Below are positions 18,001 through 41,529 of a DNA stretch of 64,000 nucleotides, piece after piece. The translations under genes and the position numbers were made by a program. Location of the stretch: positions 728,505 through 792,504 of the forward strand of contig NZ_LMIK01000005.1 of NCBI RefSeq assembly GCF_001428685.1. Reading direction: 5' to 3'. Source of the stretch: Lysobacter sp. Root76. GTDB lineage: Bacteria; Pseudomonadota; Gammaproteobacteria; Xanthomonadales; Xanthomonadaceae. The notes beneath the pieces were generated by a model. It was given only the letters and a program-made list of their open reading frames with translations. It was not told where the DNA came from and did no database searches. The stretch's first letter is position 1; every line of letters starts with the position of its first letter.

Positions 18001-18313
18001 CTCGCGCCAGTTGCGCGAACAGCGGCATGGGCGCGGCGTGCACGCGGCCGGCATCGTCACCCAGCGCCAGCGTCCGGCCACGGCCGGCGGCACCATCTTC
18101 GTCACCCTCGAAGACGAACACGGCATGGTCAACGTGGTGGTGTGGCAGGACGTGGCGCTGCGTTCGCGCAAGGCCCTGCTGGGGGCGCGCCTGCTAGCGG
18201 TGCGCGGGCGCTGGGAGCAGGTCGACGGCGTGCAGCACCTGATCGCGCGCGAACTGCAGGATCTGAGTCATCTGCTCGGCGATCTGCAGACCTCCTCGCG
18301 CGATTTCCATTGA
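15071..18313 (+). CDS. dnaE2: Error-prone DNA polymerase III alpha subunit homologue DnaE2
   Basis: 1080 aa, a typical DnaE2 length. The N-terminal PHP domain begins [25 protein letters not shown]. The C-family polymerase palm shows [17 protein letters not shown] and [21 protein letters not shown] with the catalytic aspartates. [24 protein letters not shown] and [17 protein letters not shown] follow, then helix-hairpin-helix and OB-fold regions to the C-terminus. DnaE2 performs damage-induced mutagenic synthesis with ImuB. Fourth gene of the lexA2 cassette; the alkB-like gene follows after 10 bp. Confidence 0.96.
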
Positions 18314-23612: not shown

Positions 23613-24659
23613 TCACGGGTGCTGATCCAGCGTCCATTCCAGAGTAGTCAACGAGGTCAGGAAGTCCGCGGCGTCGAAGGCCTGGCCGGGGGCGACCACC
23701 CCCACGGCTATCGCACGCCCGTCGAGTATGCGCACCAGCGCCTCCACGATCAGCGGCGCGCTGACCGCGTAGATGTCCTGGCCCTGCGCGGTCGCCCGAC
23801 GCGAGCGGCCATCCCGGCGTACCTGCACGTCGACGACATAGCGTTGCGCCGAACGCCCGCTTTCATCGACTGCGGTCGGCGTCGGCGTGCCGGGATCGCG
23901 CACGTCCTGCACGGCGGTCAGGTTCATGTAGGAATCGACTTGAGCGCAGCGCAGATGCCGCGACAAGGTGGCGATTTCCGAGAACGGCAGGGCCAGGGTC
24001 GCTTGCGCGCCGAACGGGGGCGGAAACGTCCACTCGCGTGTCGCCGGCGGTTGCGCCAGCGGAGCGAGCCGGCCATCGGCGATCACCAGCCGCGGACGCT
24101 GGTTGCGTTGACCGGTCACGCGTGTGCCCAGGGTCGGATGCCAGCTGTCCAATGCGACCGCGATCTCGACCGCATCCGCATCTGATGCACCATCCAGCGC
24201 AGCGGTGGTCAGCAGATCGGCCAGACCGCCGAAGAAGGCCATGGCCGGAATCGCGACGATGCCGGCGGCGCGCGCCTGCTCGTCGTAGTCCGCCACCAGA
24301 TCGAGTACCGCGCCTTGCTCTGCGCACAGGTCGAGATAGGGCAGCCCCGCGCGCAACGCCGCTTCCAGCACCGGCGCGGCGGTGTCGAGGAAGGGGCCGG
24401 CGCAGTTGAGCACCGCGACGGCGCCTTGCAGCATCCGATCCAGCGCTTGCGGGTCTTCGATGGACGCCTGGCCTCGCTGCAAATGCGGATAGGCGTCGGC
24501 CAGCTCCGCCAGCTTGGCGGCATCGCGCCCGCACAGGCGCGGCACCAGGCCGCGCCGGAGCAGTTCGTCGATCACGAAGCCTGCGGTATGGCCGTAGGCG
24601 CCGTAGACGGCGACGGTCTTGCCTGCCGACGCCGCGGCGCGGATCTGAGCGTGGCTCAT
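23613..24659 (-). CDS. Saccharopine dehydrogenase-like NAD(P)-binding protein
   Basis: 348 aa. An N-terminal Rossmann fold (VAVYGAYGHTAGFVIDELLRRGLVPRLCGRD) is followed by LNCAGPFLDTAAPVLEAALRAGLPYLDLCAEQ, the typical pattern of saccharopine-reductase-like and trans-acting enoyl reductase-like proteins. The exact reaction is unknown. The start MSHAQIRAAA overlaps the stop of the upstream alpha/beta-hydrolase by 4 bp. With the hydrolase and the small Cys-rich protein it forms a three-gene unit, so the three probably serve one pathway. Confidence 0.85.
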   Translation of the reverse strand: MSHAQIRAAASAGKTVAVYGAYGHTAGFVIDELLRRGLVPRLCGRDAAKLAELADAYPHLQRGQASIEDPQALDRMLQGAVAVLNCAGPFLDTAAPVLEAALRAGLPYLDLCAEQGAVLDLVADYDEQARAAGIVAIPAMAFFGGLADLLTTAALDGASDADAVEIAVALDSWHPTLGTRVTGQRNQRPRLVIADGRLAPLAQPPATREWTFPPPFGAQATLALPFSEIATLSRHLRCAQVDSYMNLTAVQDVRDPGTPTPTAVDESGRSAQRYVVDVQVRRDGRSRRATAQGQDIYAVSAPLIVEALVRILDGRAIAVGVVAPGQAFDAADFLTSLTTLEWTLDQHP

Positions 24660-25549
24660 GCGATGGCCGCCTGTGCGTTTGCGGGTTCGACGGAGTGCGT
24701 CTGCCAATGCGTGCGCAGTTCGCGATTGAAGTCCTGCCAGCGTTCTTCGGGGAAGAAAATGCGCGCGCCGTCGAACTCGACCCGTCGCACGGTGCCAGGA
24801 ATGGTCTGCTGCAGCCAGAACGACCAGGCCAGCGGGAAGTAGATATCATCGGTGCCCCAGGCGATCAGGGTCGGCGCCTGCAGGCGGCGCAGTCCGTCCT
24901 CGATCGCCAGGGTGTGGCGGCAATCGAAGGCATTGACGAAGCGTTCCAGTTCGCCGAGGCGTCGGGCCGGATCCAGCAGCGGTCGCAGGTAGGTGTCGAT
25001 GGTCGCGTCCGCGATCTGTTCGGGTCGCTCGTAGGCCGGTGCCAACGCGCTACGGAACACCGCCTTGTCGGCCAGCATGGCCTGCAGCGTATCGCCCAGG
25101 CCGCCCGCGGCCACCATGGCGACGAAAGGCTTGAAGGCCTCCGGCGGCCAGTTGTCATGGGCGTCGCAGTTGCTCAGCGCCAGGCTGCGGATGCGCTGGG
25201 GGTAGTGCGCGGCGAAGATCTGGCAGACGCCGCCGCCGCTGTCGTTGCCGACCAGATCGACGCGGTCGATGCCCAGCGCATCGAGGAACTGCGCCAGCAT
25301 GTGCGCATTGGCGGTGACCGACACGTCCTGGCCGTCGCCGGCCTCGGTGTAACCGTGCGCGAGCAGGTCGACCGCGATGCAACGTCGGCTGTCGCTCAGT
25401 TCCGCGAGCTGATGGCGCCACAGATAGCCGTTGAGCAACACGCCGTGCACGAACAGCGCGACCGGGCCCTGGCCCTGTTCGACGTAGCTGATCCGGCCCG
25501 AGGGCGTGTCGACCGAGCGGCGCGCGGCGAAGTAGGTCTCGCCGTTCAT
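24656..25549 (-). CDS. Alpha/beta-fold hydrolase
   Basis: 297 aa. It has the oxyanion-hole region FVHGVLLNGYLW, the nucleophile elbow GNDSGG and the acid region PTLIAWGTDDIYFP. The elbow G-N-D-S-G-G is unusual: the residue at the GxSxG centre is Asp, as in haloalkane dehalogenases and epoxide hydrolases, with Ser directly after. The nucleophile is therefore probably the Asp. The start ATG overlaps the stop of the 45-aa Cys-rich gene, and the end overlaps the reductase gene, so it is the middle of a coupled trio. Confidence 0.88.
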   Translation of the reverse strand: MNGETYFAARRSVDTPSGRISYVEQGQGPVALFVHGVLLNGYLWRHQLAELSDSRRCIAVDLLAHGYTEAGDGQDVSVTANAHMLAQFLDALGIDRVDLVGNDSGGGVCQIFAAHYPQRIRSLALSNCDAHDNWPPEAFKPFVAMVAAGGLGDTLQAMLADKAVFRSALAPAYERPEQIADATIDTYLRPLLDPARRLGELERFVNAFDCRHTLAIEDGLRRLQAPTLIAWGTDDIYFPLAWSFWLQQTIPGTVRRVEFDGARIFFPEERWQDFNRELRTHWQTHSVEPANAQAAIA

Positions 25550-27558: not shown

Positions 27559-28860
27559 CTAGCCGGCCAGCGCCACGCCGGCCGCGCCGGCTTCGGCCGA
27601 CAGCACCGGCTGGGACCGGCCGACCTGGGCGTCCAGCATCGCCGTCAGCGCGTCGCGCAGGGCATGGGCGCGCTCCTGAGTGATGCAGCGTTCGTCGCCC
27701 ATGCAGTAGAAGCGGATCTGGCCATGCAGGGCATAGACGATCAAGCCAAGCGCACGGACCGAACGCGAGTGCACAAAGACGCGCAGATCGCGCAGGCGGA
27801 ACGGAGCGTCGTCGCCGAGCAGGTCGAGATTGCCCAGGTTGGACAGGGTGAAGCGGTTCCAGCTGCCGTTGAGCCCGAGCGCGTTGCCGAACCGGATCAG
27901 CGCATGCAGTTGCGCCGGCGCCGGGGGGCGGATCAGTTCGCAGAAGTGGTAGCGGCCCGGGATGTCGTGGGTCTCGCGTTCGATCTGGCCCTGCATCGAG
28001 CGATGCACCGTGCGGGCGCACTCCCAGAAATCGGCAGCGCCGGCTTCGCCGGTGCGGAACTTGAGGCCGCCGCCACCGTAGAACAGCATGTCGTCGGCCA
28101 GCGCCGGCAGACGGCCGCGGCGGCCGTCCATCGGACTTTCGATCCAGGCCGGCAGCCGCTCGCGGCCCAGCGCGGTCAGCAGGGCGCTGTCCAGCGCGAC
28201 CACCAGCGCCGCATGCACCGACACGCCCTCATGCTTGCAACGCTGCCGCAACGCAGCCGACAGGGCCGGCCCGGCATTCCATTCCAGGTGATGTTCGCGA
28301 TTACGCGGGGCAGGCAGCGGCGGCAGCACCCGCAGCAGCAGCCCGATCAGGCGCGCGGTCCAGCGCCGGCGCCGCGGGTGTTCGGGGCGGTAGTCGCCGA
28401 CGATATCGGCGGCGCTGAGCGCCGCGTAGGGCCGCAGCGGCGCGTCGTCGTACAGGGCCCGCAGCGTTTCCCGAACCAGGATCAGCAGGCTCATGCCGTC
28501 GCAGATGCGGTGCGAGGCGACGAACAGCAGATCGCTGGCGTCCGCGCCGCGCAGCCAGACCAGGCGCAGCTGCGGCTGGCCCTGCGCGAACGGGGTCTCG
28601 GCTTCATCCACGGATTCGCGTCGGCAGTCGTCGTCGCCGTTCCGGTCGAGCACGCGCAGCGGGATGGGCCCGGCGCTGTCTTCGACATAGTGCAGGCCGC
28701 CGCGTCGCGCCTGCATGGTGGCGCGCAAGGCGGGATGCTTGCGCTGCACGCGCGCCAGCGCCTCGCGCAGGCGAGTTTCGTCGATGCCGCCTTCGAGCCG
28801 GACCGCATAGACCAGGCTGCCGTCGATCAGATGTTCGATCGTGGACAGCTTGCGGCTCAC
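27559..28860 (-). CDS. Condensation-domain-like acyltransferase (second copy of cluster)
   Basis: 433 aa from a GTG that overlaps the upstream glycosyltransferase stop (GTGA). The fold matches NRPS condensation domains and PapA/wax-synthase-type acyltransferases: RVQRKHPALRATM, the active site SHRICDGMSL at 116-125 (HHxxxDG with the first His replaced by Ser and the catalytic second His kept), and the late motif FTLSNLGNLDLLG. It is free-standing, with no carrier or adenylation domain. Such enzymes transfer acyl groups to alcohols or amines. As the last gene of the NRPS/glycosyltransferase locus it probably acylates a sugar or the lipid-amino-acid product (inference). Confidence 0.82.
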   Translation of the reverse strand: MSRKLSTIEHLIDGSLVYAVRLEGGIDETRLREALARVQRKHPALRATMQARRGGLHYVEDSAGPIPLRVLDRNGDDDCRRESVDEAETPFAQGQPQLRLVWLRGADASDLLFVASHRICDGMSLLILVRETLRALYDDAPLRPYAALSAADIVGDYRPEHPRRRRWTARLIGLLLRVLPPLPAPRNREHHLEWNAGPALSAALRQRCKHEGVSVHAALVVALDSALLTALGRERLPAWIESPMDGRRGRLPALADDMLFYGGGGLKFRTGEAGAADFWECARTVHRSMQGQIERETHDIPGRYHFCELIRPPAPAQLHALIRFGNALGLNGSWNRFTLSNLGNLDLLGDDAPFRLRDLRVFVHSRSVRALGLIVYALHGQIRFYCMGDERCITQERAHALRDALTAMLDAQVGRSQPVLSAEAGAAGVALAG

Positions 28861-29837
28861 GAGGCGTCTCCCGGCGCCGACCTCGAGCTCGCGGTTGCGG
28901 CGGCTGGCGCCCCACGTGCGGCGCCGGAGCAGTAGGCGTGGATACGCGGATGCAGGCGTTCGAACGTGCCCAGCTTGCCGCGTCGGCCGTCGAAGTAGCC
29001 GCAGGCGATGGCGGTCAGCTTGCGCAGCTTGTCCGGCTCGAACAGCGCCACGCACAGGCTCTGGTGCAGGGCCAGCGCGCCGCTGAGCCAGTGCAGGCCC
29101 CAATGGGCCTTGTATAGACGCAGACAATGCACCGCGTTGCGCGCGCCGTAGTAGCGTCGCCAGGCGACGTGATGGGTCGTGTAGAGCTTGCCGTGGCGGC
29201 GGATCTGGCCGGTGGTCTGGTTCATCACCACGTCTGCGTTCATCAGTACCGGCACGCCCTGGCTGGAGGCGCGCAGGCCGTACTCGATATCGATGTACTC
29301 GATGAAATAGTCCTCGCGGAATGCGCCGAGCTTGCGATAGGCGGCGGCCGAGATCGCCGAACCGGAGGAAATCACGAACAGGGTCGGGAACAAACCCTGG
29401 CTGCGCTCGGTCATGCGCACCGGCCGCGGGAAGCGCCGGCCCGGCGGGAAGGTCGGCATGCATTTGCGCAGGTTGATCTCGTACACGCGCGGCCCGAGCA
29501 CGAAGCAGTCGTTGCCCAGCGTGGCGCAGGCCTGCATCATCTGTTCGAAGAACGAGGCCTCGATCTTGGAGTCCTGGTCGAGCAGGAAGATCACTTCGCA
29601 GCCGCGCGCCAGCAGCACTTCGGCGCCGCGGTTGTAGGCACCGGCCAGGCCGCCGCGGTTGCGGTTGACCAGTACGTCGATGTGTTCGTCGTGCAGGGCC
29701 CGGTGCAGGGACGCATCCGGTTCGGGCGAGTTGTCGATCGCGACCAGATCGGCGCAGATCGCGCGCGCGCGGCGCAAGTTGTCGACGAACTCCGGGCCCG
29801 GCTGGTACAGGACGAAGATCAGGCCGTAGCGAGTCAT
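28857..29837 (-). CDS. GT2 glycosyltransferase, RhlC/rhamnosyltransferase-like
   Basis: 326 aa. GT-A fold family 2: GLIFVLYQPGPEFVDNL, AIDNSPEP, NRNRGGLAGAYNRGAEVLL, the DxD-type FLLDQDSKIE, and SSGSAISAAAYRKLGAFREDYFIEYIDIEYGLRA. The same order of motifs occurs in RhlC and other rhamnosyltransferases that add a second sugar to a glycolipid. Both ends overlap neighbouring genes by 4 bp. In this cluster it probably extends the sugar added by the upstream UGT-like enzyme. Sugar identity cannot be read from sequence. Confidence 0.87.
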   Translation of the reverse strand: MTRYGLIFVLYQPGPEFVDNLRRARAICADLVAIDNSPEPDASLHRALHDEHIDVLVNRNRGGLAGAYNRGAEVLLARGCEVIFLLDQDSKIEASFFEQMMQACATLGNDCFVLGPRVYEINLRKCMPTFPPGRRFPRPVRMTERSQGLFPTLFVISSGSAISAAAYRKLGAFREDYFIEYIDIEYGLRASSQGVPVLMNADVVMNQTTGQIRRHGKLYTTHHVAWRRYYGARNAVHCLRLYKAHWGLHWLSGALALHQSLCVALFEPDKLRKLTAIACGYFDGRRGKLGTFERLHPRIHAYCSGAARGAPAAATASSRSAPGDAS

Positions 29838-31180
29838 GAGGCGCGTACCGGTGCGGACGAGGGCGCGTGCTGGGCGGTTTGCGTCTGCGGCGCGGTCATC
29901 GATTCCAGCAGCGCCATCGCGTGTTCGCGGATCCGCTGCGCCTGCGCGCGCGGCAACGAGTCTTCGTCGGAGGCGAGCACGAAGTCGTAGCGGCCGGCGT
30001 AGCGCGACATCACCACCAGATGCGCCGGCGTCGCGCCGACCAGGCCGGAGACGCCGCGCACCGCACGCAGGCGGTAGCCGTGATAGTCCTGCGCCAGCGA
30101 CAGCCGGCCCAGGTTGCTGAGCGTCAGTTCGCGCCCGGCGCGCCGCGAACGGCCGTAGGAGACCATGCGTTCGAATACGCCGTGCAGGCGTTCCAGGCCG
30201 AGGAAGTTGCGGTAGACCTTGGGCGCCAGGACTTCGACCTTGGCCTGAAGGTCTGCCTGCAGCGCCCGTGCCTGCTCCCAGAACTCGGTCGGCGAGCATT
30301 CGCCCGCGCGCGCCTTGCCCGGCTGCAGCGCGATCGTCGGCGCGATCCCGAACAAGTCGTCGTCGGCGAGTGCGGGCAGCAGGCTGCGCATGTCCACCGG
30401 CGCGGTGTAGCGCTGGATCCAGCGCGGGCCGCAGACCGCGCGGAACGCAGCGATGAAGGCCAGGCTGATCGCGACGTAGGTGCTGACGCGCTCGTGGCGG
30501 CAGTGCTCGGACAGCCGTCGGCTGGCGGCCTCGTCCAGAGTCCAGAGTTCGCGATAGACCTCGCCGTAGCGCTGCGCCGGCCTGGACCTAACCAGCAGCC
30601 GCAGCGCCAGGGACAACGCGGCCGCGCGCCAGCGGATGCTGCGTTGCAAGCCGCGGTCGTTGCGCACCGAGTCGGGCAGTAGATCGATGAAGCTCGCCAG
30701 CAGGTGACGGGGTTCGACCGCGTGTTCGGAGCCGTCGGACCAGCGCAGCAGCTCGCCTAGCAAGGTCATCAGCGAGCGCCCGTCGCAGATCGCGTGATGG
30801 CAGACCAGGACCAGCTCGCTCTGGTTCTCGCCGCGCAGCCAGATCAGCCGTGCCAGCGGTTCGCTGCGGCCATCGAAGCGCCGTTGCAGCTCGCGCGCCG
30901 AGGTCGTCATCCAGCCGTCGTCGCCGTTCCGGCCTAGGATACGCAGGGCGATCGGCAGGGGGCTGTGCTGCATTTCGAACCACGGCCGGCCGTCGCGTTC
31001 GACGATCAGGCAGCGCAGCAGCGGGTGACGCGCCTGCAGTTGGGTCAGTGCGCGCTGCAGCGCGGTCTGATCGATGCGGCCTTCGACGCAGGCGGTAGCG
31101 ATGACGTTGCCCGGCAGGCTGCCGTCGCCGTACAGGGCGCGTTCGAACAGGGTCAGCGGACGTGCGGGGACGGTGCTCAT
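29834..31180 (-). CDS. Condensation-domain-like acyltransferase (first copy of cluster)
   Basis: 448 aa. Canonical active-site motif HHAICDGRSL at 128-137. The N-terminal half shows LQARHPLLRCLIVERDGRPWFE and LRILGRNGDDGW; the latter also occurs in the 433-aa paralogue (LRVLDRNGDDD). The C-terminal half has LTLSNLGRLSL. The two proteins are clearly related but well diverged. No carrier or adenylation domain is attached. The ATG overlaps the stop of the UGT-like gene. Likely an O-acyltransferase acting on the glycosylated intermediate, analogous to PapA proteins (inference). Confidence 0.84.
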   Translation of the reverse strand: MSTVPARPLTLFERALYGDGSLPGNVIATACVEGRIDQTALQRALTQLQARHPLLRCLIVERDGRPWFEMQHSPLPIALRILGRNGDDGWMTTSARELQRRFDGRSEPLARLIWLRGENQSELVLVCHHAICDGRSLMTLLGELLRWSDGSEHAVEPRHLLASFIDLLPDSVRNDRGLQRSIRWRAAALSLALRLLVRSRPAQRYGEVYRELWTLDEAASRRLSEHCRHERVSTYVAISLAFIAAFRAVCGPRWIQRYTAPVDMRSLLPALADDDLFGIAPTIALQPGKARAGECSPTEFWEQARALQADLQAKVEVLAPKVYRNFLGLERLHGVFERMVSYGRSRRAGRELTLSNLGRLSLAQDYHGYRLRAVRGVSGLVGATPAHLVVMSRYAGRYDFVLASDEDSLPRAQAQRIREHAMALLESMTAPQTQTAQHAPSSAPVRAS

Positions 31181-32493
31181 GCGACGCTCCGCAGCCGCGG
31201 CGCTTCGGGCGCGATCGGATCGAGCAGGCCCCAGGCGCGCAACTGCGCCAGCGCCGCGCCGATGCCGTCTTCGGCGCGCACCGTGCGGCCCAGTTCTGCC
31301 GCCGCCCGCAGCATCGGCGCTTGTTGCGTGGCGCGGATGGCCTCGGCCAGTTGCGCGGCATCCAGGGTCTTGCGTTGCAGCGCCGGCGGCGCGACGCCGC
31401 GGCGTTGCAGGCAACGCGCCCAGAACGGCTGATCGCCATAGAACGGCACCACCACCGAGGGGATGCCGGCGCGCACCGCGGCGGCGGTGGTGCCGGCGCC
31501 GCCGTGGTGCACGGCCGCGCACATGTGGGGGAACAGGGCATCGTGCGGCGCGTGGCGCAGGAAGTAAGTGCGTGCGTCGCGCGCGCCGTCGGCGCCGTCC
31601 AGGCCGCCCCAGCCGGTGGCGAGTACGGCACGCAAGCCGCTGCGTTCGACCGCGTCGAGCACGGTGCGGGTGAAAGCGACCGCGTCGGCGTTGACCATGC
31701 TGCCGAAGCCGACATAGACCGGCTTGTCGCCGCCGGCGAGGAAGCGGCGCAAGTCCTCGCTGGGCTGCCACGAGCTCTGTTCGGCGAACCAGTAACCGGT
31801 GATCTGCGAACTCTCCGGCCAGTCCGCAGGACGCGGCAGCAGGGCCGCGCTGTAGCCGTTGAGGGTCTTTTCCTGCTGGGCATTGCGGCCCAGATGCGGG
31901 CCGTGCCAGGGATAGCGCGGCAGACCCAGTTGCGGCCGCACCAAGTCGTTGATCGCCGGCTTCATCACGTACCACACCAGCAGATGGATCAGCTTGTACA
32001 GGCCCAGGCTGAGCGCGCCCGGCAGGCGCTCGCGAGATCCGGCCATCACCATCGGCGGCAGGATCCGCGACGGCGTCAGAGGCTGCAGGCGCGCGATCGC
32101 GAACGGCAGGCCGCGTGCTTCGGACAGGGCCTTGGCCAGCTGGATGGCGTTGCTGACGCCGATCAGCAAGCCCGCGCCGTCGCTGGCGGCCAGGCCTTCC
32201 GCGGCCCAGTCCCGGGCCCAGTGCGCATAGCGCTCACGGAAGGTGCGCGCCATGGCGTACAGATTGAGGCCGCGATCGGCGATGCTGCGGTCGGCGTCGA
32301 GCATGGCCTGGAAATCCGCGCTCAGCGGGTAATGCTCCAGGCCGGCGTCGCCCACCAGCGCGGCGAAGTTGGCGCTGGTGGCGATGCGCACGGGATAGCC
32401 CGCGCGCCGCAGGCCCTGGCCCAGCGCGACGCAGGGCAGCACGTCGCCGAGCGTGCCGATAGTGAAGATGACGACGGGCCGCGCGGCGGACAT
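31177..32493 (-). CDS. GT1/UGT-family glycosyltransferase, RhlB-like
   Basis: 438 aa. GT-B fold: N-terminal VVIFTIGTLGDVLPCVALGQGLRRAGYPVRIAT and the C-terminal donor-site motif HHGGAGTTAAAVRAGIPSVVVPFYGDQPFWA, the family-1 signature also found in RhlB and macrolide or sterol glycosyltransferases. I start at MSAARPVV, which has GAG six bases upstream; MPEP at 32508 is an alternative. It overlaps the NRPS 3' end only with the longer start. It probably transfers the first sugar to the NRPS-derived acyl-amino acid (inference). Confidence 0.88.
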   Translation of the reverse strand: MSAARPVVIFTIGTLGDVLPCVALGQGLRRAGYPVRIATSANFAALVGDAGLEHYPLSADFQAMLDADRSIADRGLNLYAMARTFRERYAHWARDWAAEGLAASDGAGLLIGVSNAIQLAKALSEARGLPFAIARLQPLTPSRILPPMVMAGSRERLPGALSLGLYKLIHLLVWYVMKPAINDLVRPQLGLPRYPWHGPHLGRNAQQEKTLNGYSAALLPRPADWPESSQITGYWFAEQSSWQPSEDLRRFLAGGDKPVYVGFGSMVNADAVAFTRTVLDAVERSGLRAVLATGWGGLDGADGARDARTYFLRHAPHDALFPHMCAAVHHGGAGTTAAAVRAGIPSVVVPFYGDQPFWARCLQRRGVAPPALQRKTLDAAQLAEAIRATQQAPMLRAAAELGRTVRAEDGIGAALAQLRAWGLLDPIAPEAPRLRSVA

Positions 32494-32500
32494 GGTCGGC

Positions 32501-35500
32501 TCAGGCATGGACCACCGACCATGCCTGCCTGTCGTCGTCGAGCGCGTCCACGGCCGGCCGTTGCAACAGGTCCAGGCGTTGGCGCAGCACCTGGCCGATG
32601 CGCGCGGCGGGCGCGTGGTCGAGCACGCTCTCGTGATGGCAGTCCAGCGCATGCAGTTCGAAGCGGCCGCCGACATAGGACCGCCAGGTCTCCGGGTCGT
32701 GCTCGATCAGCCCCGACGGGTCGCCCAGGCGCTGTGTGGCGTGGAAATACACCAGGTCCAGATCGAGCTTGCGCGGCGCGTGCCGGCGCGCGAGCGTGAG
32801 GTTGTTGCGCATCACCGCGAATGCATGCTCGACGAAGCGCGGGTGGTCGCGCGCGATCTCGCGCAGCAGCGGCATCGAACGCGCGTTGTGGGCGAGCAGG
32901 GCCGGGGCCAGTTCGTCCAGGCTGCGCGGCGCCGGGCCGCGATCCGCGGCGATGCCGAGGAAGCCCAGCGCCGCGCGTACTTCGTCGGCCGGGTCGTGCG
33001 TCTGGGTCGGTGCCGAGAACAGATAGCTGTCGATCATCGCCAGCAGCTCCACTCGTTCGCCCTGCTCGTTCAACTGCGCAGCGATGGCATGGCCGATCAG
33101 CCCGCCCAGCGAACGGCCGAGCAGGCGATACGGGCCCTCGGGCTGGATGCGGCGGATCTGGGCGAGATAGTCGGCGGCGATTTCGTCGATGCTGGCCGGC
33201 AACGGTTCCATGCCGCGCAGCCCGCGCGACTGCAGTCCGTACACCGGCATCGAAGGATCGAGGTGACGGAGCAGGCCGGAGTAACCCAGGCTGAGCCCGG
33301 CGATGGGATGGATGCAGAACAAGGGACGCGGCGGCGCAGCGGTGGAGGAGGTCGGCTTGCGCAAGGACAGCACCGCGCCCAGCGGATCGCCGTGCTCGTG
33401 GTCGGTGCGCTCCAGCAGCGCGGCCAAGCCGGCGATGGTCGAGGCTTCGAACAGGCTGGCCACCGGCAAGCGCTTGCCGAAGCGATCGGGCAGGCGCGCG
33501 ATCAGCTGCGCGGCGATCAGCGAATCGCCGCCGAGCTCGAAGAAATTGTCGTGGATGCCGATGCGCGGCAGGCCCAGCAGTTCCGCCCAGATCGCCGCGA
33601 GCTTGCGCTCCACCGGCGTGCGCGGCGCGACGAAGCCGCTGCGCTCGCCGCGTTCGGGCGTGGGCAGGGCCTTGCGGTCGAGCTTGCCCGTGGGCGTCAG
33701 CGGGAGCGCGGGCACCGGCACCAGGGCGCTGGGAATCATGTAGTCGGGCAGGCGCTCGGCGAGATGGCGGCGCAGCGTATCGACCTGCAGCGTGGCGCCG
33801 GCGACGGGCACCAGATAAGCGTTCAGACGCACGCCGCCTTCGCTGCCGGCGGGCTCGGCGATCACCGCCGCGTCCGCGATATCGGCGTGTTCGAGCAGCC
33901 GGCTCTCGATTTCGCCCGGCTCGACCCGGATGCCGCGGATCTTGATCTGCTGATCGCTGCGGCCCAGGTATTCGAGCACGCCGTCCTCGCGCCAGCGCAC
34001 CACGTCGCCGGTGCGATACATGCGGCTGCCGTCGCGATCGAAGGGGTCGGGCAAGAAGCGTTCCGCGGTCAACTCCGGCCGATGCAGATAGCCCTTGGCG
34101 ACGCCGGCGCCGGCGATGTACAGCTCGCCTGGGCAGCCGGTCGGAACCGCACTGCCGCCGGCATCGAGCACGTACAGGCGGGTGTTGAGAATCGGACGCC
34201 CGATCGGCGGCGCGGCCAGGTCCGCGTCCGACAACTCGATCGCGGTGGAGTAGACGGTGGTCTCGGTCGGTCCGTAGAGATTGCTGACCTTGTCCGCGAG
34301 CCGCGCCAGCCGCTGCGCCAGTTCGCCGGACAGGGCCTCGCCGGCGGCCAGCGCGTGCACGCCGGACAGGTCGGTGTCGCCGCTGGACAGCAGCATGCGC
34401 CATAGCGACGGCGTCGCCTGCATGTAGCCGATGCCGTGTTCGCGGATCAAGGCCGCCAGGCGCGGCGGGTCGCGCACGATGTCGCCGCCGGCGATTACCG
34501 TCTGCGCGCCGACTATCAAAGGCAGGAACAGTTCCAGCGCGGCAACGTCGAAGACCACCGTGGTGACCGCGAGGAAGCGGTCGCTGGCGATCGGTGCGAG
34601 CTGGCGGCGCATCGCTTCGAGCAGGTTGCCCAGGTTGCGATGGCTGACCTCGACGCCCTTGGGCCGGCCGGTGGAACCGGAGGTGTAGAGGATGTACGCG
34701 GTGGCCTCGGGCGTGGACAGGTCGAAGGCGCGCGGGGTCGCCAGCGCGGCGACGACGTCGGCCGGCGCCAGTGTCGCCAGCGGCGTGCCCAGGCGCGCGA
34801 GCCGTGGCGCGAGCCGCGGCGACGTCAGCAACAGCGCCGGCTGGGCGTCGGCCAGCATGCTCGCCAGGCGTTCGTCGGGCGTATCGGGATCCAGCGGCAG
34901 ATATGCCGCGCCGGCGAAGCCGATCGCCAGCGTCGCCACCAGCAGGTTCTCGTCGCGCGGCAACGCCATCGCCACGATCTGGCCGGGGGCGACCCCGCGT
35001 TCGATCAGCCGGTTGGCCTCGTGCAGGCAGCGCACGTGCAGGTCGCGATAGCTCAGGCGGCGCTCGCCGTAGCGCACCGCGGTGGCCTCGGGACTGCGCC
35101 AGGCCTGTTCGGCGAACAGCGCCGGCAGGGTCTGCGCGGGCACCGGCGCGGCGGTGTCGTTCCAGCGCCGCAGCAGGCGTTCGCGTTCTTCCTCGCCGAG
35201 CACATCGATGCCGCCCAGCGTCGCGTCGGGATCGGCGAGCGCGGCGTCGATCAGGCGCTGCATGCGCCGGCGGTGCTCGTCCAGCTCGGCCGCGTCGTAT
35301 AGCGCCGGGTTGGCGTCGAAATCGAAACGCAGGCCGCCGTCGTCGCCGCGGTCGTAGACGAACACGGTCAGGTCCTCGGCCGAGCCGTTGGACAGATTGC
35401 GCGGCACGCCGCTCGCGCCGCCGAAGTCGAGCGCGTAATCGAAGGGCTCGATGTTCACCCCAAGCCAGGCCACGCGCTGGCCCTGGCCGACCAGGCCGAG

Positions 35501-36505
35501 TTCGCGACGCAGGTCTTCGTAGCGGTAACGCTGATGGCGCAGCGCCTGGGCGACCACGCGTGCGACCTGGGCGATCAGCTCGCTCACGGTCTGGGTCGGC
35601 GTCATCCGCAGGCGCAGCAGCACCGCATTGGCGAGCATGCCCGGCGTATGCCGCAATTGATGGTTGACCCGCCCGCTGACCGGCATGCCCAGGACCAGGT
35701 CGGCGGCGCCGGTGGCGCGGAAGTAGTAGGCGGCGACCAGCGCGATCAGCACCTGCGGCAGGCTCGCCGAGCGTTCCTTGCCCAATGCGCGCAGCCGGCG
35801 CGTGCTGTCGCCGGACAGAAAGCCGCTGCTGCGCCGGAGCCCGCCGTCGCCGCGCGAGCGGCGTCGCGACAGCGTCACCGGTTCGGGCAGTTCGGCGAGT
35901 TGCTCATGCCAGTACTCGCGGTCGCGGCGGCAGCGGTCCGAGGCGCGGTAGGCGTCTTCGGCTTCGAGCAGCGAGGCCAGCGAATGGAAGCCGCTGGCCT
36001 CGGGCTGACGGTTGAGCGCGTAGGCCGAGTAGATCTCGGCAACGCGTCGCGCGATCAGGCCGCCTGCGTAGCCGTCCAGGACGATGTGATGGGCACGGTG
36101 GTACCAGACGTGGTGTTCGTGGCTGAGCTTGAACAAGGCGCAGGCCCACATCGGGCTGTCGTCCAGCTCGGCCTGGGCCGACAGTTCGGCGGCCATCCAG
36201 CGTTCGGCCGCGGCGGCCGGATCGCTGTCGTCGCTGAAGTCGAAGTAGGGGAAATCGTCGATGCGGGTGCCGACGATGCATTGACGCGGAACGCCGTCGA
36301 CATCGATCAGGCGCAGGCGCAGGGCCTCGGCTTCCGACGACACCTGGCGCAAGGCGCGCAGGAACAGCCCAGGATCGATCCAGCCGCGGATATCGATGGC
36401 TTCGGCGAGATTGAAGTTGGCGCCCGGCCCGGCGAGCTTCTGGCCGAACCAGAGACCGAGCTGGGCCACGGACAGGGGCAACGAAACTGCACGCGCATCG
36501 TTCAT
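32501..36505 (-). CDS. Single-module NRPS, C-A-T-TE (EntF-like architecture)
   Basis: 1334 aa from MNDARAV. Condensation domain about 8-430 with intact HHIVLDG at 139-145. Adenylation domain about 455-950 with YTSGSTGRPKG at 607-617, YGPTETT at 744 and TGKLDRKAL. Carrier protein with LGGDSL at 991-996, the Ser taking phosphopantetheine. Type I thioesterase with GRSLGG at 1130-1135 and a C-terminal HHESVLDH holding the probable catalytic His. By hand alignment to GrsA the specificity residues read D-V-L-Q-L-A-L-V-Y-K, closest to known glycine codes (inference). It is the first gene of a five-gene coupled operon. Domain order equals EntF, but there are no siderophore genes nearby; an N-acyl amino acid or small lipopeptide is more likely. 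Confidence 0.95.
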   Translation of the reverse strand: MNDARAVSLPLSVAQLGLWFGQKLAGPGANFNLAEAIDIRGWIDPGLFLRALRQVSSEAEALRLRLIDVDGVPRQCIVGTRIDDFPYFDFSDDSDPAAAAERWMAAELSAQAELDDSPMWACALFKLSHEHHVWYHRAHHIVLDGYAGGLIARRVAEIYSAYALNRQPEASGFHSLASLLEAEDAYRASDRCRRDREYWHEQLAELPEPVTLSRRRSRGDGGLRRSSGFLSGDSTRRLRALGKERSASLPQVLIALVAAYYFRATGAADLVLGMPVSGRVNHQLRHTPGMLANAVLLRLRMTPTQTVSELIAQVARVVAQALRHQRYRYEDLRRELGLVGQGQRVAWLGVNIEPFDYALDFGGASGVPRNLSNGSAEDLTVFVYDRGDDGGLRFDFDANPALYDAAELDEHRRRMQRLIDAALADPDATLGGIDVLGEEERERLLRRWNDTAAPVPAQTLPALFAEQAWRSPEATAVRYGERRLSYRDLHVRCLHEANRLIERGVAPGQIVAMALPRDENLLVATLAIGFAGAAYLPLDPDTPDERLASMLADAQPALLLTSPRLAPRLARLGTPLATLAPADVVAALATPRAFDLSTPEATAYILYTSGSTGRPKGVEVSHRNLGNLLEAMRRQLAPIASDRFLAVTTVVFDVAALELFLPLIVGAQTVIAGGDIVRDPPRLAALIREHGIGYMQATPSLWRMLLSSGDTDLSGVHALAAGEALSGELAQRLARLADKVSNLYGPTETTVYSTAIELSDADLAAPPIGRPILNTRLYVLDAGGSAVPTGCPGELYIAGAGVAKGYLHRPELTAERFLPDPFDRDGSRMYRTGDVVRWREDGVLEYLGRSDQQIKIRGIRVEPGEIESRLLEHADIADAAVIAEPAGSEGGVRLNAYLVPVAGATLQVDTLRRHLAERLPDYMIPSALVPVPALPLTPTGKLDRKALPTPERGERSGFVAPRTPVERKLAAIWAELLGLPRIGIHDNFFELGGDSLIAAQLIARLPDRFGKRLPVASLFEASTIAGLAALLERTDHEHGDPLGAVLSLRKPTSSTAAPPRPLFCIHPIAGLSLGYSGLLRHLDPSMPVYGLQSRGLRGMEPLPASIDEIAADYLAQIRRIQPEGPYRLLGRSLGGLIGHAIAAQLNEQGERVELLAMIDSYLFSAPTQTHDPADEVRAALGFLGIAADRGPAPRSLDELAPALLAHNARSMPLLREIARDHPRFVEHAFAVMRNNLTLARRHAPRKLDLDLVYFHATQRLGDPSGLIEHDPETWRSYVGGRFELHALDCHHESVLDHAPAARIGQVLRQRLDLLQRPAVDALDDDRQAWSVVHA

Positions 36506-36970
36506 CGCACCGCTCCTTGTGCACATCGACGAAACGGCTGCGGCCTGCCTGCCGCACCCGTTGCGATGTCGTCGTCCTGACGTGTTCGAGAGGAGTCCAG
36601 TGCCGGACTCGTTTACAGGTTGCCATTACTGCGCAAGCAGAACTGTGAAGCCGATTGTGGATTCGTTGTGCACCTGCACAACGTCACGCCGGCGTCACGC
36701 GATGCTTGCGAAATCGGTCGCGTCCTGAGTGAAAACCACTAGAGATCCGCATCGTTTTGCGGTGAGCGGATGCGATCCTGCTTGAGTTTCGCGCATCGCC
36801 GTTGCGGTAGAGCAAGGTTTCGACGAAGCCGAAAGCGACTGACGCACTCCGGCAAATCCTGGCCGCTACCTCTTCAGCATCCGCCCTGGCCGATCCGCGA
36901 AGTACGATATCGCCGATCCCGACGCCGCCCGCGCGTCGGGCCCGAACTCGAAGAACAACGGACTGCCCAC
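36506..36970. other. Regulatory region of the NRPS operon, no gene seen
   Basis: About 465 bp between the divergent NRPS and GNAT genes. It contains a near-perfect operator-like palindrome (separate entry), a GAGAGGAGTCC purine stretch, and no convincing open frame. Parts are less GC-rich than the flanks (for example around 36605-36670 and 36725-36780), as expected of a promoter region. Confidence 0.5.
36664..36683. promoter_or_regulatory. 20-bp palindrome upstream of the NRPS operon
   Basis: CGTTGTGCACCTGCACAACG is a perfect 9-bp inverted repeat with a 2-bp centre, about 160 bp upstream of the NRPS start and about 290 bp upstream of the GNAT gene. The size and symmetry are those of a dimeric regulator's operator. 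The cognate protein is not in the window. LuxR-, TetR- or GntR-type binding are all possible. Confidence 0.6.
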
Positions 36971-38618: not shown

Positions 38619-39989
38619 ATGAACTCCCAGACCGAGACCGCCCGCCCCGACGAAACCCAGCTCGGCTACGCGATGAAACCGCGTCAGCTGGTGATGATGG
38701 GCCTGGGCAGCGCGATCGGCGCCGGGTTGTTCCTGGGCTCGGGCGTGGGCATCCAGGCGGCCGGTCCGGCGGTGTTGCTGTCCTACCTGATCGCCGGCGT
38801 GCTGGTGATCATCGTGATGCGCGCCTTGGGCGAGATGGCCGCGGCCAAGCCGGCCAGCGGCGCGTTCTCGGTCTACGCCGCCGACGCCATGGGCGCCACC
38901 GCCGGCGCGACCCTGGGCTGGTTGTGGTGGGCGCAGCTGGTGATCGTGATCGCGGCCGAGTCGGTGGGCGCGGCCGGTCTGCTGGCGACGGTCTGGCCGG
39001 GCTTGCCGGTGGCGATGATGTCGTTGCTGTTCATGGCCGTATTCACCGCGATCAATTTGCTGGGCGTCAAGAATTTCGGCGCCTTCGAGTTCTGGTTCGC
39101 GATCCTCAAGGTCGTCGCGATCCTCGCCTTCATCGCGGTCGGTGCGGCCCTGTTGCTGGGCTGGTTGCCGAACGTGAGCTCGCCGGGCCTGTCCAACTTC
39201 GTCGATCACGGCGGCTTCGCGCCCAAGGGCTGGGCCGGCGTGGGCGCGGCGCTGCTGGTGGTGATCTTCGCCTTCGGCGGCACCGAGATCGTCGCGGTCG
39301 CCGCGGCCGAGACCCAGGATCCGGTGCGCAGCATCACCCGCGCGATCCGCACCGTGGCCTGGCGCATCCTGGTGTTCTACATCGGCTCGGTCAGCGTCAT
39401 CATCGCGGTGGTGCCGTGGACCAGCGAGTCGCTGAAGTCGCCGTTCGCCGCGGTGCTGCAGGTCGCCAATATCCCGGGCGCGGCGGCTGCGATCACCCTG
39501 GTCGCGGTGATCGCGCTGCTGTCGGCGCTCAACGCCAACCTCTACGGCGCTTCGCGCATGATCTATTCGCTGGCCGAACGCCGCGAGGCGCCGCGCTTCC
39601 TGGCCGGCGTCGATCGCCGCCAGGTGCCGGTGGCCGCGGTGTTGGCCAGCGTCGCGTTCGGCTTCTTCGCCGCCCTGCTGGAGCTGTGGTATCCGGAGCG
39701 CGTGCTGCCGGCGCTGCTGAACGTGGTCGGTTCGACCTGCCTGCTGGTATGGGGCATGTCGCTGCTGTCGCAGTTGATCCTGCGCCGCCGCGCCGACCGC
39801 GAGGGCACGCCGCTGCCGTTCCGGATGAACGCCTTTCCCTACCTGACCTGGCTGGGTCTGGCGCTGCTGGGCGGCGTGATCGCGCTGGCCTTGCTCACCG
39901 AGGGCCCGCGCATGCAGCTGTTGTCGACCATCGCGTTGACCTTGGGCATCGCGGCGATCAGCGAGATCGCGCGGCGCGTGCGCGCGTGA
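38619..39989 (+). CDS. Amino-acid permease, APC superfamily (AAT/GABA permease type)
   Basis: 456 aa, 12 predicted membrane helices. The hallmark LVMMGLGSAIGAGLFLGSGVGIQAAGPAVLLSYLIAGVLVIIVMRALGEMA covers helices 1-2, and FAFGGTEIVAVAAAETQDP is the helix-6 consensus of the AAT family (GabP, AroP, LysP relatives). It imports an amino acid by proton symport; substrate not determined. The start MNSQTETARP gives the usual short cytoplasmic N-terminus. Transcribed alone. Confidence 0.93.
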   Translation: MNSQTETARPDETQLGYAMKPRQLVMMGLGSAIGAGLFLGSGVGIQAAGPAVLLSYLIAGVLVIIVMRALGEMAAAKPASGAFSVYAADAMGATAGATLGWLWWAQLVIVIAAESVGAAGLLATVWPGLPVAMMSLLFMAVFTAINLLGVKNFGAFEFWFAILKVVAILAFIAVGAALLLGWLPNVSSPGLSNFVDHGGFAPKGWAGVGAALLVVIFAFGGTEIVAVAAAETQDPVRSITRAIRTVAWRILVFYIGSVSVIIAVVPWTSESLKSPFAAVLQVANIPGAAAAITLVAVIALLSALNANLYGASRMIYSLAERREAPRFLAGVDRRQVPVAAVLASVAFGFFAALLELWYPERVLPALLNVVGSTCLLVWGMSLLSQLILRRRADREGTPLPFRMNAFPYLTWLGLALLGGVIALALLTEGPRMQLLSTIALTLGIAAISEIARRVRA

Positions 39990-40164
39990 CACGGCGGATC
40001 ATTCTTTAAGCGATTGCGTCGTCGCCCGGCTTGCATGGTTTGGCCACCGCAGAGCGATGGGGGCTGAGCTTCTTTGAGGCCGTCGGCGGCTTCGCGATCC
40101 CCGGTCTTCCCATCGGTGAAGGTGTGGCCGATCGGGTGGTCTGTTTAAAGAACTGCCCCGTGCT

Positions 40165-40389
40165 TCAAAGCGTTCGTAACGGTGTGGCCGCTCGCTCGTC
40201 TCGGATGCGATAGATGTCTTCGTAATCCATCGCGGCAAAAGTGAGGATTGCGGCAGCATCGGCCAACTTCTGCAAGTCAGCCGCGACGCGAGCGAACGAT
40301 TTGCGCGGCCATTCTTGCGTTCATCTGCAGAAGGTCTTGCGGGAGACCGGAAAGCGGGTGCGCTTGACTCCGTTCTCAGTTGTCGTCAT
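40165..40389 (-). pseudogene. Small gene interrupted by an in-frame TGA
   Basis: Starting at an ATG that overlaps the last codons of the upstream small gene, the frame reads MTTTENGVKRTRFPVSRKTF-CR, meets TGA at codon 23 (40321-40323), then continues in the same frame as TQEWPRKSFARVAADLQKLADAA, AILTFAAMDYEDIYRIRDERA and ATPLRTL to a proper stop. The downstream half has good amphipathic helix character. The shared frame and the start overlap argue for a ~74-aa gene inactivated by one nonsense change, rather than chance. The family is not recognised. Confidence 0.5.
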
Positions 40390-40675
40390 CTCTGACCTTC
40401 TCTGAGACCAGTCGGCATATGCGCTTCATGAGTTCGGAAAGATCTCTCGTGCCTGCACTTGAAATGACGTAGTACTCGCCTGTCTTTGTGTATTCAGATA
40501 GTAATAGCTCAATCTCTGCCATAACGTCGCCCGGGAGCGCGAAGAGGGTGCGCTTTACTTCTTCATCGGTGTATTTCTTCGCGCTAATAATTATCGGAAA
40601 CGCCGCCTCTTCGATGGACGATTGAGTGTTCTGCAGTCTTCGATATGCTGGTTCGCCATGGTGGGAAAATTGCAT
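40376..40675 (-). CDS. Small hypothetical protein, orphan
   Basis: 99 aa. No known motif. The core EEAAFPIIISAKKYTDEEVKRTLFAL and GDVMAEIELLLSEYTKTGEYYVISSAG has mixed alpha/beta character and good acidic composition, so I think it is a true protein. The true start may be internal, as the first ~20 residues look less orderly. Its composition is less GC-rich than the flanking chromosome. The size and acidity resemble toxin-immunity proteins, but no partner toxin is present (inference). A 69-bp repeat lies about 80 bp upstream. Confidence 0.5.
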   Translation of the reverse strand: MQFSHHGEPAYRRLQNTQSSIEEAAFPIIISAKKYTDEEVKRTLFALPGDVMAEIELLLSEYTKTGEYYVISSAGTRDLSELMKRICRLVSEKVRDDDN

Positions 40676-40755
40676 TCCATGATCAATGTCCTCTGCCTTG
40701 GTCTAGCTGTCATACGGCCTGGCCTCCCACGTCGACGGTCTCCAGGGACGCCGAC

Positions 40756-40824
40756 CTCTTCTGGCCGCCAAAGAATTACCCCGCTGCATGGTTTGCTTGG
40801 GTGGGAGGCTGTCGTGGAATTGCG
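40756..40824 (+). repeat. Diverged repeat, copy A
   Basis: 69 bp that align without gaps to 41378-41446; I count 46 of 69 identical bases by eye, with many differences at third positions of one frame. In that frame copy A reads PKNYPAAWFAWVGGCRGIA and copy B reads LKNNSAARNAWVSGCCGIT, sharing K-N, A-A, A-W-V, G-C and G-I. The codon-like divergence suggests the repeats descend from coding DNA. Confidence 0.55.
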
Positions 40825-41026
40825 GATTTCTCGAGTTACGTTTTAAACGCTTGCGGTCCATCGTCCGAAAAGCGAGGTCGCTTCGGGGAGCCTCTTCTCG
40901 GCCTTCTGTTCGGCCTCATGACGGTGGGCTGGAAGTCTTTAGGAAGGTTTTCTTTGCGACGTGCTCCAGCCCCTCGCCTTTAGCTCGCCGACATTCCTTG
41001 TACGAACCAGCCACTGCGGCCCGATT

Positions 41027-41332
41027 TCAATTTGGCTTGCAAAACGAGGATCGCCATTCAATGAAAGCATGAGGGTAGGGGTCCTTGCCTAGTCCGACAT
41101 GGTAGTGACTCCGGAGAGCCATTCCTGTCACGCCTTCATGGAAGAAGAAATCGTCATCCTGCACTGGAATTCCAATGGCGCCGCAGTGCTGAGCGCTCCG
41201 GAACCGAGAGTAGTACTCCCTGGCGAGGGTTGATGCATCGGCTACCGAGTAGCCGAAGCTTGCGTGCAAGTCTGAAACCACCTCATCGAAGAAGCGATTG
41301 GTTTCTTCGTCGGTTGGGAGCATCGGATTCAT
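41027..41332 (-). CDS. Small hypothetical protein, possible orphan immunity protein
   Basis: 101 aa starting MNPMLPTDEE, with AGAAAG just upstream; an ATG 21 bases earlier is possible. The sequence NRFFDEVVSDLHASFGYSVADASTLAREYYSRF then QDDDFFFHEGVTGMALRSHYHVGLG is acidic, aromatic-rich and well ordered. It has the feel of the small single-domain proteins found next to RHS and CDI toxins, but I cannot name a family and no toxin is adjacent. Copy B of the 69-bp repeat lies about 45 bp upstream. Confidence 0.6.
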   Translation of the reverse strand: MNPMLPTDEETNRFFDEVVSDLHASFGYSVADASTLAREYYSRFRSAQHCGAIGIPVQDDDFFFHEGVTGMALRSHYHVGLGKDPYPHAFIEWRSSFCKPN

Positions 41333-41377
41333 ATCGGTTCTTTCTTGTATCAATTGAACGAAGACCGGAACATGCTC

Positions 41378-41446
41378 TCCTTCCGGTCGCTGAAGAATAA
41401 TTCAGCCGCTCGAAACGCGTGGGTGTCAGGCTGCTGTGGAATTACG
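41378..41446 (+). repeat. Diverged repeat, copy B
   Basis: Partner of the repeat at 40756-40824. It lies just upstream of the 101-aa minus-strand gene, as copy A lies upstream of the 99-aa gene, so repeat plus gene may be the duplicated or mobilised unit. A third, very degenerate piece (GCATGGTTTG with flanking similarity) may exist near 40027-40050. Confidence 0.55.
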
Positions 41447-41529
41447 AGTGCCCGGGATTCTGCTGCCGGCTATCGTGCTGGCCTGGGCATCGCGGAGGCC
41501 AGGGAGATCATGGCGGCTGCGCGATGGAG

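Follow-up and report, generated by a model that had tools for sequence, protein, structure and literature searches.

A conserved five-gene operon of Lysobacter sp. Root76 predicted to build a decorated aminoacyl glycolipid

A 64,000-nucleotide stretch of the Lysobacter sp. Root76 genome (contig NZ_LMIK01000005.1, positions 728,505 to 792,504; hereafter the window) contains five minus-strand genes that encode, in this order, a nonribosomal peptide synthetase (NRPS), a GT1-family glycosyltransferase (GT1), a free-standing condensation-fold enzyme (AT1), a GT2-family glycosyltransferase (GT2) and a second free-standing condensation-fold enzyme (AT2). They overlap end to end by 8, 4, 4 and 4 nucleotides (Table 1). 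We consider it rather probable that this operon makes a decorated aminoacyl glycolipid, in which an N-(3-hydroxyacyl)-amino acid carries sugars added by GT1 and GT2 and O-acyl groups added by AT1 and AT2. Several lines of evidence support this proposal: the starter type of the NRPS condensation domain, together with glycine-type codes in 22 of 43 related NRPSs and DhbF as the best match of the adenylation domain; the co-occurrence of NRPS and GT1, the nesting of GT2 and the AT genes within their range, and the apparent replacement of the tailoring genes as a cassette; rmlD (344 bits) and two phosphopantetheinyl transferase (PPTase)-family genes in the 4.36 Mb host genome, the latter two elsewhere on the window's contig; and the case of Alcanivorax, where the accessible literature reports NRPS, glycosyltransferase and PPTase genes and a glycine-glucolipid that is made and kept in the biomass. 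The initial annotation had named the same five coupled genes, which coordinates, overlaps and Pfam matches confirm. Its suggestion of an acylated, glycosylated amino-acid lipid fits in general, except for the small peptide that it allowed as the backbone, since one module points to one N-acyl amino acid.

The single NRPS module matches the Pfam families Condensation (217 bits), AMP-binding (272), AMP-binding_C (51), PP-binding (66) and Thioesterase (104), giving a condensation (C), an adenylation (A), a carrier (T) and a thioesterase (TE) domain. The NCBIfam models MxcG (781 bits) and EntF (731 bits, for a cut-off of 2400) both score below their cut-offs. In a phmmer search of the PDB, the C domain was closest to 7c1k (289 bits), which we take to be the starter C domain of RzmA, followed by CDA C1 (4jn3, 218 bits), ObiF1 (203), EntF (155) and the 1l5a amide synthase (119), all others reaching at most 112 bits. 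Going by the types ascribed to its best solved matches, we assign the domain to the starter (lipoinitiation) type. Because such a domain is combined here with a single A domain and a TE domain, the expected product is one N-acyl amino acid and not a peptide. The module had at first been described as EntF-like, which holds for its domain order, but neither for the type of its C domain nor for its family score.

Among single-domain PDB matches, the A domain scores best with DhbF (5u89, 478 bits; LgrA scores higher only when summed over two domains), whose first module presumably takes glycine. Ten-residue codes were read in 43 NRPS sequences, which include five duplicate loci (excluded from the trees) but not the sequence of genome G002: 22 have the form DILQ(L/M)G..WK, 14 are DIFQLTLVWK, five are DVLQLALVYK and two have other forms. 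We assume that the DILQLG-type code stands for glycine. This signature is absent from the window's A domain, for which the alignment gives DVLQLALVYK, as it does for the four congeners in which the operon is complete, that is, for five of the five loci of the window's clade. To judge from these comparisons, the amino acid used is probably small, glycine or alanine.

Related NRPSs with two modules were seen at two Variovorax loci (L017:9968-18799 and L072:10001-21538). Their first code is DVWHISLVDK, which we would read as serine; a GT1-type gene follows the NRPS at L017, and a GT2 match (36%) lies downstream at L072. Such loci are possibly a parallel elaboration.

GT1 matches Pfam EryCIII-like_C (51 bits), and its nearest solved structures are sterol 3-beta-glucosyltransferases (5xvm, 151 bits). 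The DQ pair of its donor motif is kept in 39 of 39 sequences, a set that includes three duplicate loci and leaves out the GT1 of Dyella silvatica, which lies in two frame pieces under the length limit. We take this pair to point to uridine diphosphate (UDP)-glucose as donor. GT2 matches Pfam Glycos_transf_2 (33.4 bits) and has a DQDS motif in all 34 sequences compared; no solved relative was found in the PDB at an E-value of 0.01.

Both AT1 (54.7 bits) and AT2 (38.6 bits) exceed the cut-off of Pfam Condensation (PF00668, 30.6 bits). In AT1 the HHxxxDG motif is complete, in the form HHxxCDG, in 29 of 29 sequences, among which we count the single AT of congeners with split loci; AT2 has lost the first His and kept the second His, the Asp and the Gly (xHRxCDG) in 19 of 19, an AT2 fragment under the length limit (L171) being left out of the counts. 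The two enzymes form separate clades in the tree, and the single AT of split-locus congeners groups with AT1. Neither reaches the cut-off of the NCBIfam PapA5-type acyltransferase model (43 bits for AT1 and 30 for AT2, against 396). The predicted structure of AT1 has a condensation fold (predicted local distance difference test, pLDDT, 70; predicted template-modelling score, pTM, 0.70), with a template-modelling (TM) score of 0.69 and 23% identity to PDB entry 8s6l, and of 0.63 and 17-18% to PapA5. For AT2 the model is of low quality (pLDDT 62.7, pTM 0.56; TM score to 8s6l 0.35), so that the fold match of this enzyme leans mainly on sequence. That the two enzymes are acyltransferases, as the initial annotation had it, is a prediction: no other step of the pathway is as insecure as acyl transfer, and the closest structure has a title that names a dehydratase and a molecule name that names an acyltransferase.

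From the domains, the following route can be proposed. One small amino acid would be loaded onto the T domain and acylated there with a 3-hydroxyacyl group by the starter C domain; the TE domain would free the resulting N-(3-hydroxyacyl)-amino acid, which may carry additional 3-hydroxyacyl units like those of the Alcanivorax lipid. GT1 would then glycosylate the free 3-hydroxyl, probably from UDP-glucose, and GT2 would add a second sugar, probably L-rhamnose. AT1 and AT2 might finally acylate hydroxyls of the disaccharide, the weakest part of the scheme. By analogy with the Alcanivorax lipid, the product is probably kept in the cell envelope.

Parts of this scheme recall known systems. In rhamnolipid synthesis, RhlB and RhlC are a GT1 and then a GT2 enzyme acting on a 3-hydroxyacyl aglycone. 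The order GT1 then GT2 is the same here, but the window's NRPS would stand in place of RhlA as the aglycone maker, and the product would bear an amino acid; Pfam found no RhlA-like gene in the operon, to which the search for rhlA was confined. The serrawettin W1 synthetase SwrW is a unimodular C-A-T-TE NRPS that couples a single amino acid with a 3-hydroxy acid; likened by description, it has the same architecture, but uses serine and yields a dilactone without sugars. PapA5 (1q9j), which acylates diols, and AzeD (8s6l) share a free-standing condensation fold with AT1 and AT2, 8s6l differing by its dehydratase title.

The closest precedents are in print; the papers cited here are drawn on as far as their accessible portions go. 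In Xanthomonas albilineans, Royer et al. described in 2013 short C-A-PCP-TE NRPS genes (PCP, peptidyl carrier protein) with starter C domains, overlapped over 4 or 8 bp by a glycosyltransferase gene (XALc_0364/0365 and XALc_1145/1144). They predicted a product made of an amino acid, a beta-hydroxy acid and a glycosyl residue, and read one of the genes as specific for Gly, the code letters themselves lying outside the accessible text (PMC3849588). Compared by description, the window shares with these pairs the single C-A-PCP-TE module, the starter-type C domain and an 8-nucleotide glycosyltransferase overlap at the 3' end of the NRPS gene; it differs in GT2 and the condensation-fold enzymes, which that text does not describe, and in the code, which in those pairs is glycine or unknown. 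A 2015 paper refers to a short NRPS-glycosyltransferase pair of Xanthomonas without an attributed precise function (PMC4584326). The counterparts in Alcanivorax borkumensis are ABO_1784 and ABO_1783, with the PPTase ABO_1782 (PMC3849588). This bacterium makes glucosyl-tetra(3-hydroxyacyl)-glycine, with four ester-linked 3-hydroxy acids, minor alanine forms and an observed three-unit aglycone (PMC10684412), and the lipid stays in the biomass (PMC10710537). We infer a link between ABO_1784 and this glycine-glucolipid; in 2023 its complete pathway was described as not elucidated, the only glycosyltransferase genes named in the accessible text being ABO_1783 and ABO_2215 (PMC10710537). The Alcanivorax case thus resembles ours in having an NRPS-glycosyltransferase pair in a producer of such a lipid, and differs in that a PPTase gene adjoins its pair and not the window's (none among the 20 window proteins scanned), and in that neither a second glycosyltransferase nor an AT is described there. 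As to novelty, the initial annotation knew of no named pathway with this gene set. The NRPS-GT1 core, with nearly the same predicted product, has however been in print since 2013, whereas the full set with GT2 and two condensation-fold enzymes, or the code DVLQLALVYK, was not found in the open-licence literature searched, judged by titles and the beginnings of abstracts.

The initial annotation also suggested searching for the five-gene order elsewhere, and the order recurs in 13 other loci fetched, four from congeners and nine from outside the genus. The scan of named genomes gave the best 79 loci; 102 loci were looked at, and then 36 chosen ones. Outside the genus, the order is uninterrupted in one locus of genus g42 and in five of genus g87, and a penicillin-acylase gene is inserted between GT1 and AT1 in a further g42 locus, in one of genus g105 and in Dyella silvatica (L018), in the last of which GT1 lies in two frame pieces. 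Genus g42 belongs to the window's family (f1); g87 and g105 belong to family f12, which is probably Rhodanobacteraceae because they group with Dyella. Reduced loci were also found: L175 and L180 lack AT1, L171 lacks AT1 and has a fragment of AT2, and L178 and L183 lack both. In the stretches fetched from more distant relatives, among them Dyella choica, Nitrospirillum, Rhizobium, Spongiibacter and Xanthomonas cissicola, there is only the NRPS-GT1 pair. In Spongiibacter (L009), the NRPS, GT1 and PPTase genes are consecutive, which matches what Royer et al. report for Alcanivorax.

A gene for a penicillin acylase (Ntn hydrolase) follows GT1 in six related loci (Table 1), and the window genome has only a distant relative of it (31% identity, G000:C9:208188-209852). 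PvdQ is an enzyme that trims an N-acyl chain, and the penicillin-acylase-type enzyme may do likewise.

In an order-wide sample of 398 genomes, searched at E-value thresholds of our own choosing (1e-250 for NRPS, 1e-90 for GT1, 1e-60 for GT2 and 1e-25 for AT), NRPS and GT1 had an identical range of 42 genomes, and in 41 of these, all but G010, the two genes are neighbours on the same strand. GT2 was found in 19 genomes, all among these 42, and AT in 16, all among the 19; at these thresholds, no genome had GT2 or AT without the NRPS-GT1 pair. In 11 of the 19 genomes with GT2, a single locus holds all five genes, whether or not the acylase gene is also there. This nesting suggests a stepwise elaboration, in which a core pair gained a second sugar and then the condensation-fold enzymes.

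Gene arrangements were compared in the window genome and 19 Lysobacter-type congeners, all 20 of which have an NRPS orthologue, GT1, GT2 and an AT1-type gene. All five genes are together in the window and in four congeners (L113, L114, L115 and L117; arrangement A). In three others (L110, L112 and L121, with their NRPS loci in G008, G010 and G019), the NRPS gene stands alone and GT1-AT1-GT2-AT2 lie elsewhere (arrangement B). In the trees, the NRPS of arrangement B falls inside the clade of the remaining congeners (arrangement C, NRPS-GT1 apart from AT1-GT2) with a support of 1.0, whereas its AT1 and GT2 fall outside the corresponding clades (0.83-1.0), as does its GT1, with weak inner support. 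It therefore seems, from these topologies, that a GT1-AT1-GT2-AT2 cassette replaced the resident parts in arrangement B while the NRPS stayed.

Several observations weigh against the proposed pathway. Every chemical step is deduced; the DNA itself shows the genes and their domains, catalytic motifs that are intact, a gene order that is conserved and a nested distribution over the 398 genomes. To our knowledge, DVLQLALVYK equals no known adenylation code. GT2 scores 153.2 bits with the TIGR01556 rhamnosyltransferase model, below the curated cut-off of 200.55, and both condensation-fold enzymes are nearer to 8s6l than to PapA5 (profile 108 versus 26 bits). The hypergeometric values for the nesting (3e-21 and 7e-26) ignore kinship and overstate its significance, because nested presence is partly shared descent, and AT may have been missed in NRPS-rich genomes because scoring was confined to the 2 to 5 best first-look candidates of each genome. 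Finally, arrangement C is the state of 12 of the 19 congeners, the two parts being more than 0.2 Mb apart in seven single-contig genomes and on different contigs in the other five; in one such split locus (L103, three genes scanned), a peptidoglycan-amidase-like gene adjoins AT1-GT2, which could there serve another glycan. One reading, for which the split loci speak, is that only NRPS and GT1 form one pathway and that AT1-GT2(-AT2) act on another envelope glycan, being neighbours by chance or co-regulation. We hold this to be very improbable: at the thresholds used, none of the 398 genomes has GT2 or AT without NRPS-GT1, and the genes lie together in several genera, with a penicillin acylase between them in three loci.

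Two further alternatives concern what AT1 and AT2 do. They may build the lipid part by adding more 3-hydroxyacyl units, through ester bonds, to the N-acyl amino acid ahead of glycosylation. Condensation-fold enzymes are able to form esters. The ester-linked chain and three-unit aglycone of the Alcanivorax lipid would fit as well (PMC10684412). However, AT is absent, at the thresholds used, from 23 of the 23 genomes with NRPS-GT1 but no GT2, and the 24-kb Spongiibacter locus has no AT1 or AT2 match (the Alcanivorax locus was outside the comparison). Since AT was never seen without GT2 in the 398 genomes, we favour the sugars over the fatty chain as acyl acceptor, and regard lipid building as unlikely. 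Less probable again is a dehydration, or another side reaction of C domains, as the title of 8s6l (AzeD dehydratase of Pseudomonas aeruginosa) would have it. This entry is the best profile and fold match, its motif PHIIADG lacks the first His as in AT2, and azeD sits in an NRPS cluster (PMC9040856). On the other hand, AT1 has the complete motif throughout, a product based on glycine or alanine would offer no side-chain hydroxyl to eliminate, and the molecule in 8s6l bears an acyltransferase name, phthiocerol/phthiodiolone dimycocerosyl transferase. The literature searched gave no tested activity of AzeD and no paper mentioning 8S6L: in their accessible portions, one paper annotates azeD as hypothetical (PMC9040856), another has only azedomonamide (PMC10880069) and a third does not mention it (PMC11794875).

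Three other explanations were discarded. A siderophore cluster of the EntF type was rejected on account of the starter-type C domain and an EntF score far below the cut-off, with no catechol or siderophore-uptake gene among the 20 window proteins scanned; a multi-residue lipopeptide was rejected on account of the single module, and a chance neighbourhood on account of the recurring gene order.

Table 1. Positions of the operon genes, NRPS domains and comparison loci
Feature	Position	Strand	Basis
Single-module NRPS C-A-T-TE, 1334 aa	32501..36505	-	Pfam; NCBIfam MxcG and EntF, below cut-off
GT1 family glycosyltransferase, 443 aa	31177..32508	-	Pfam; PDB 5xvm; motifs HHGGAGTT, YGDQPFWA
AT1, free-standing condensation-fold enzyme, 448 aa, HHAICDG	29834..31180	-	Pfam Condensation; model; top PDB match 8s6l
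GT2 family glycosyltransferase, rhamnosyltransferase-like, 326 aa, LLDQDSK	28857..29837	-	TIGR01556, below cut-off
AT2, second free-standing condensation-fold enzyme, 433 aa, SHRICDG	27559..28860	-	Pfam Condensation
C domain, starter (lipoinitiation) type, HHIVLDG	35171..36481	-	phmmer against PDB
A domain, code DVLQLALVYK	33683..35116	-	PDB DhbF 5u89; code by alignment
T (carrier) domain, LGGDSL	33413..33604	-	Pfam PP-binding; motif
TE domain, GRSLGG	32612..33328	-	Pfam Thioesterase; motif
Penicillin-acylase genes	L018:10884-13157, L173:11799-14057, L174:5997-8267
Penicillin-acylase genes	L171:7667-9901, L178:10546-12762, L183:7295-9463
Genomes with the five genes in one place	G000, G011, G013, G219, G248, G265, G311, G319, G336, G353, G387

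Around the operon, Pfam places a GST gene and then an AraC regulator gene downstream on the same strand (ends 27470 and 26742), and an amino-acid permease gene lies upstream on the opposite strand (38619-39989). Pfam found no transporter, regulator or acyl-CoA ligase inside the five-gene unit, as initially noted. A promoter scan found none, terminator-like sites numbered 3 for 4.6 expected, and Rfam and tRNA scans of the window gave no match. A perfect 8-bp inverted repeat with a 2-bp spacer (36665-36682) lies upstream of the NRPS gene, some 160 bp from its start, and is not kept at the same place in four congeners. An alpha/beta hydrolase gene downstream of the operon (24656-25549) has a relative of 37-44% identity about 4.6-4.8 kb upstream of the NRPS gene in four of five congener loci (L184, L185, L186 and L188; the fifth, L187, ends short of that position), a similarity that could reflect a formerly shared gene context or be coincidental. 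Elsewhere in the window, a stretch of low G+C content (39990-41529; 0.59 for 40001-42000) between the permease and amidohydrolase genes holds open reading frames of at most 112 aa and no Rfam match, and plus-strand genes for an IMS-domain (ImuB-like) protein and a DNA polymerase III alpha (DnaE2-like) protein (13656-18313) are presumably the usual SOS mutagenesis cassette.

Since all 20 Lysobacter-type genomes sampled have NRPS, GT1, GT2 and AT1-type genes, the product seems more likely to be a house lipid of the envelope than a sporadic antibiotic. This presence in all sampled congeners, the apparent exchange of a cassette and the changing amino-acid code raise the locus above a routine cluster, a weight lessened by the prediction of the core in 2013. 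More tentatively, and with less confidence than in the pathway itself, we propose that Lysobacter-type bacteria may have a general surface lipid composed of an amino-acid-linked 3-hydroxyacyl part and a disaccharide, with O-acyl groups placed on the sugars by free-standing condensation-fold enzymes. Its amino acid would have been switched at least twice in the genus (DILQLGLVWK, DIFQLTLVWK and DVLQLALVYK) and its tailoring cassette exchanged as a block, while in the penicillin-acylase branch the N-acyl chain may be trimmed. The nested sets (NRPS and GT1, then GT2, then AT1 and AT2, then penicillin acylase) form a series in which each step could be assigned by comparing strains, and their comparison offers a chance of solving the glycine-glucolipid pathway.

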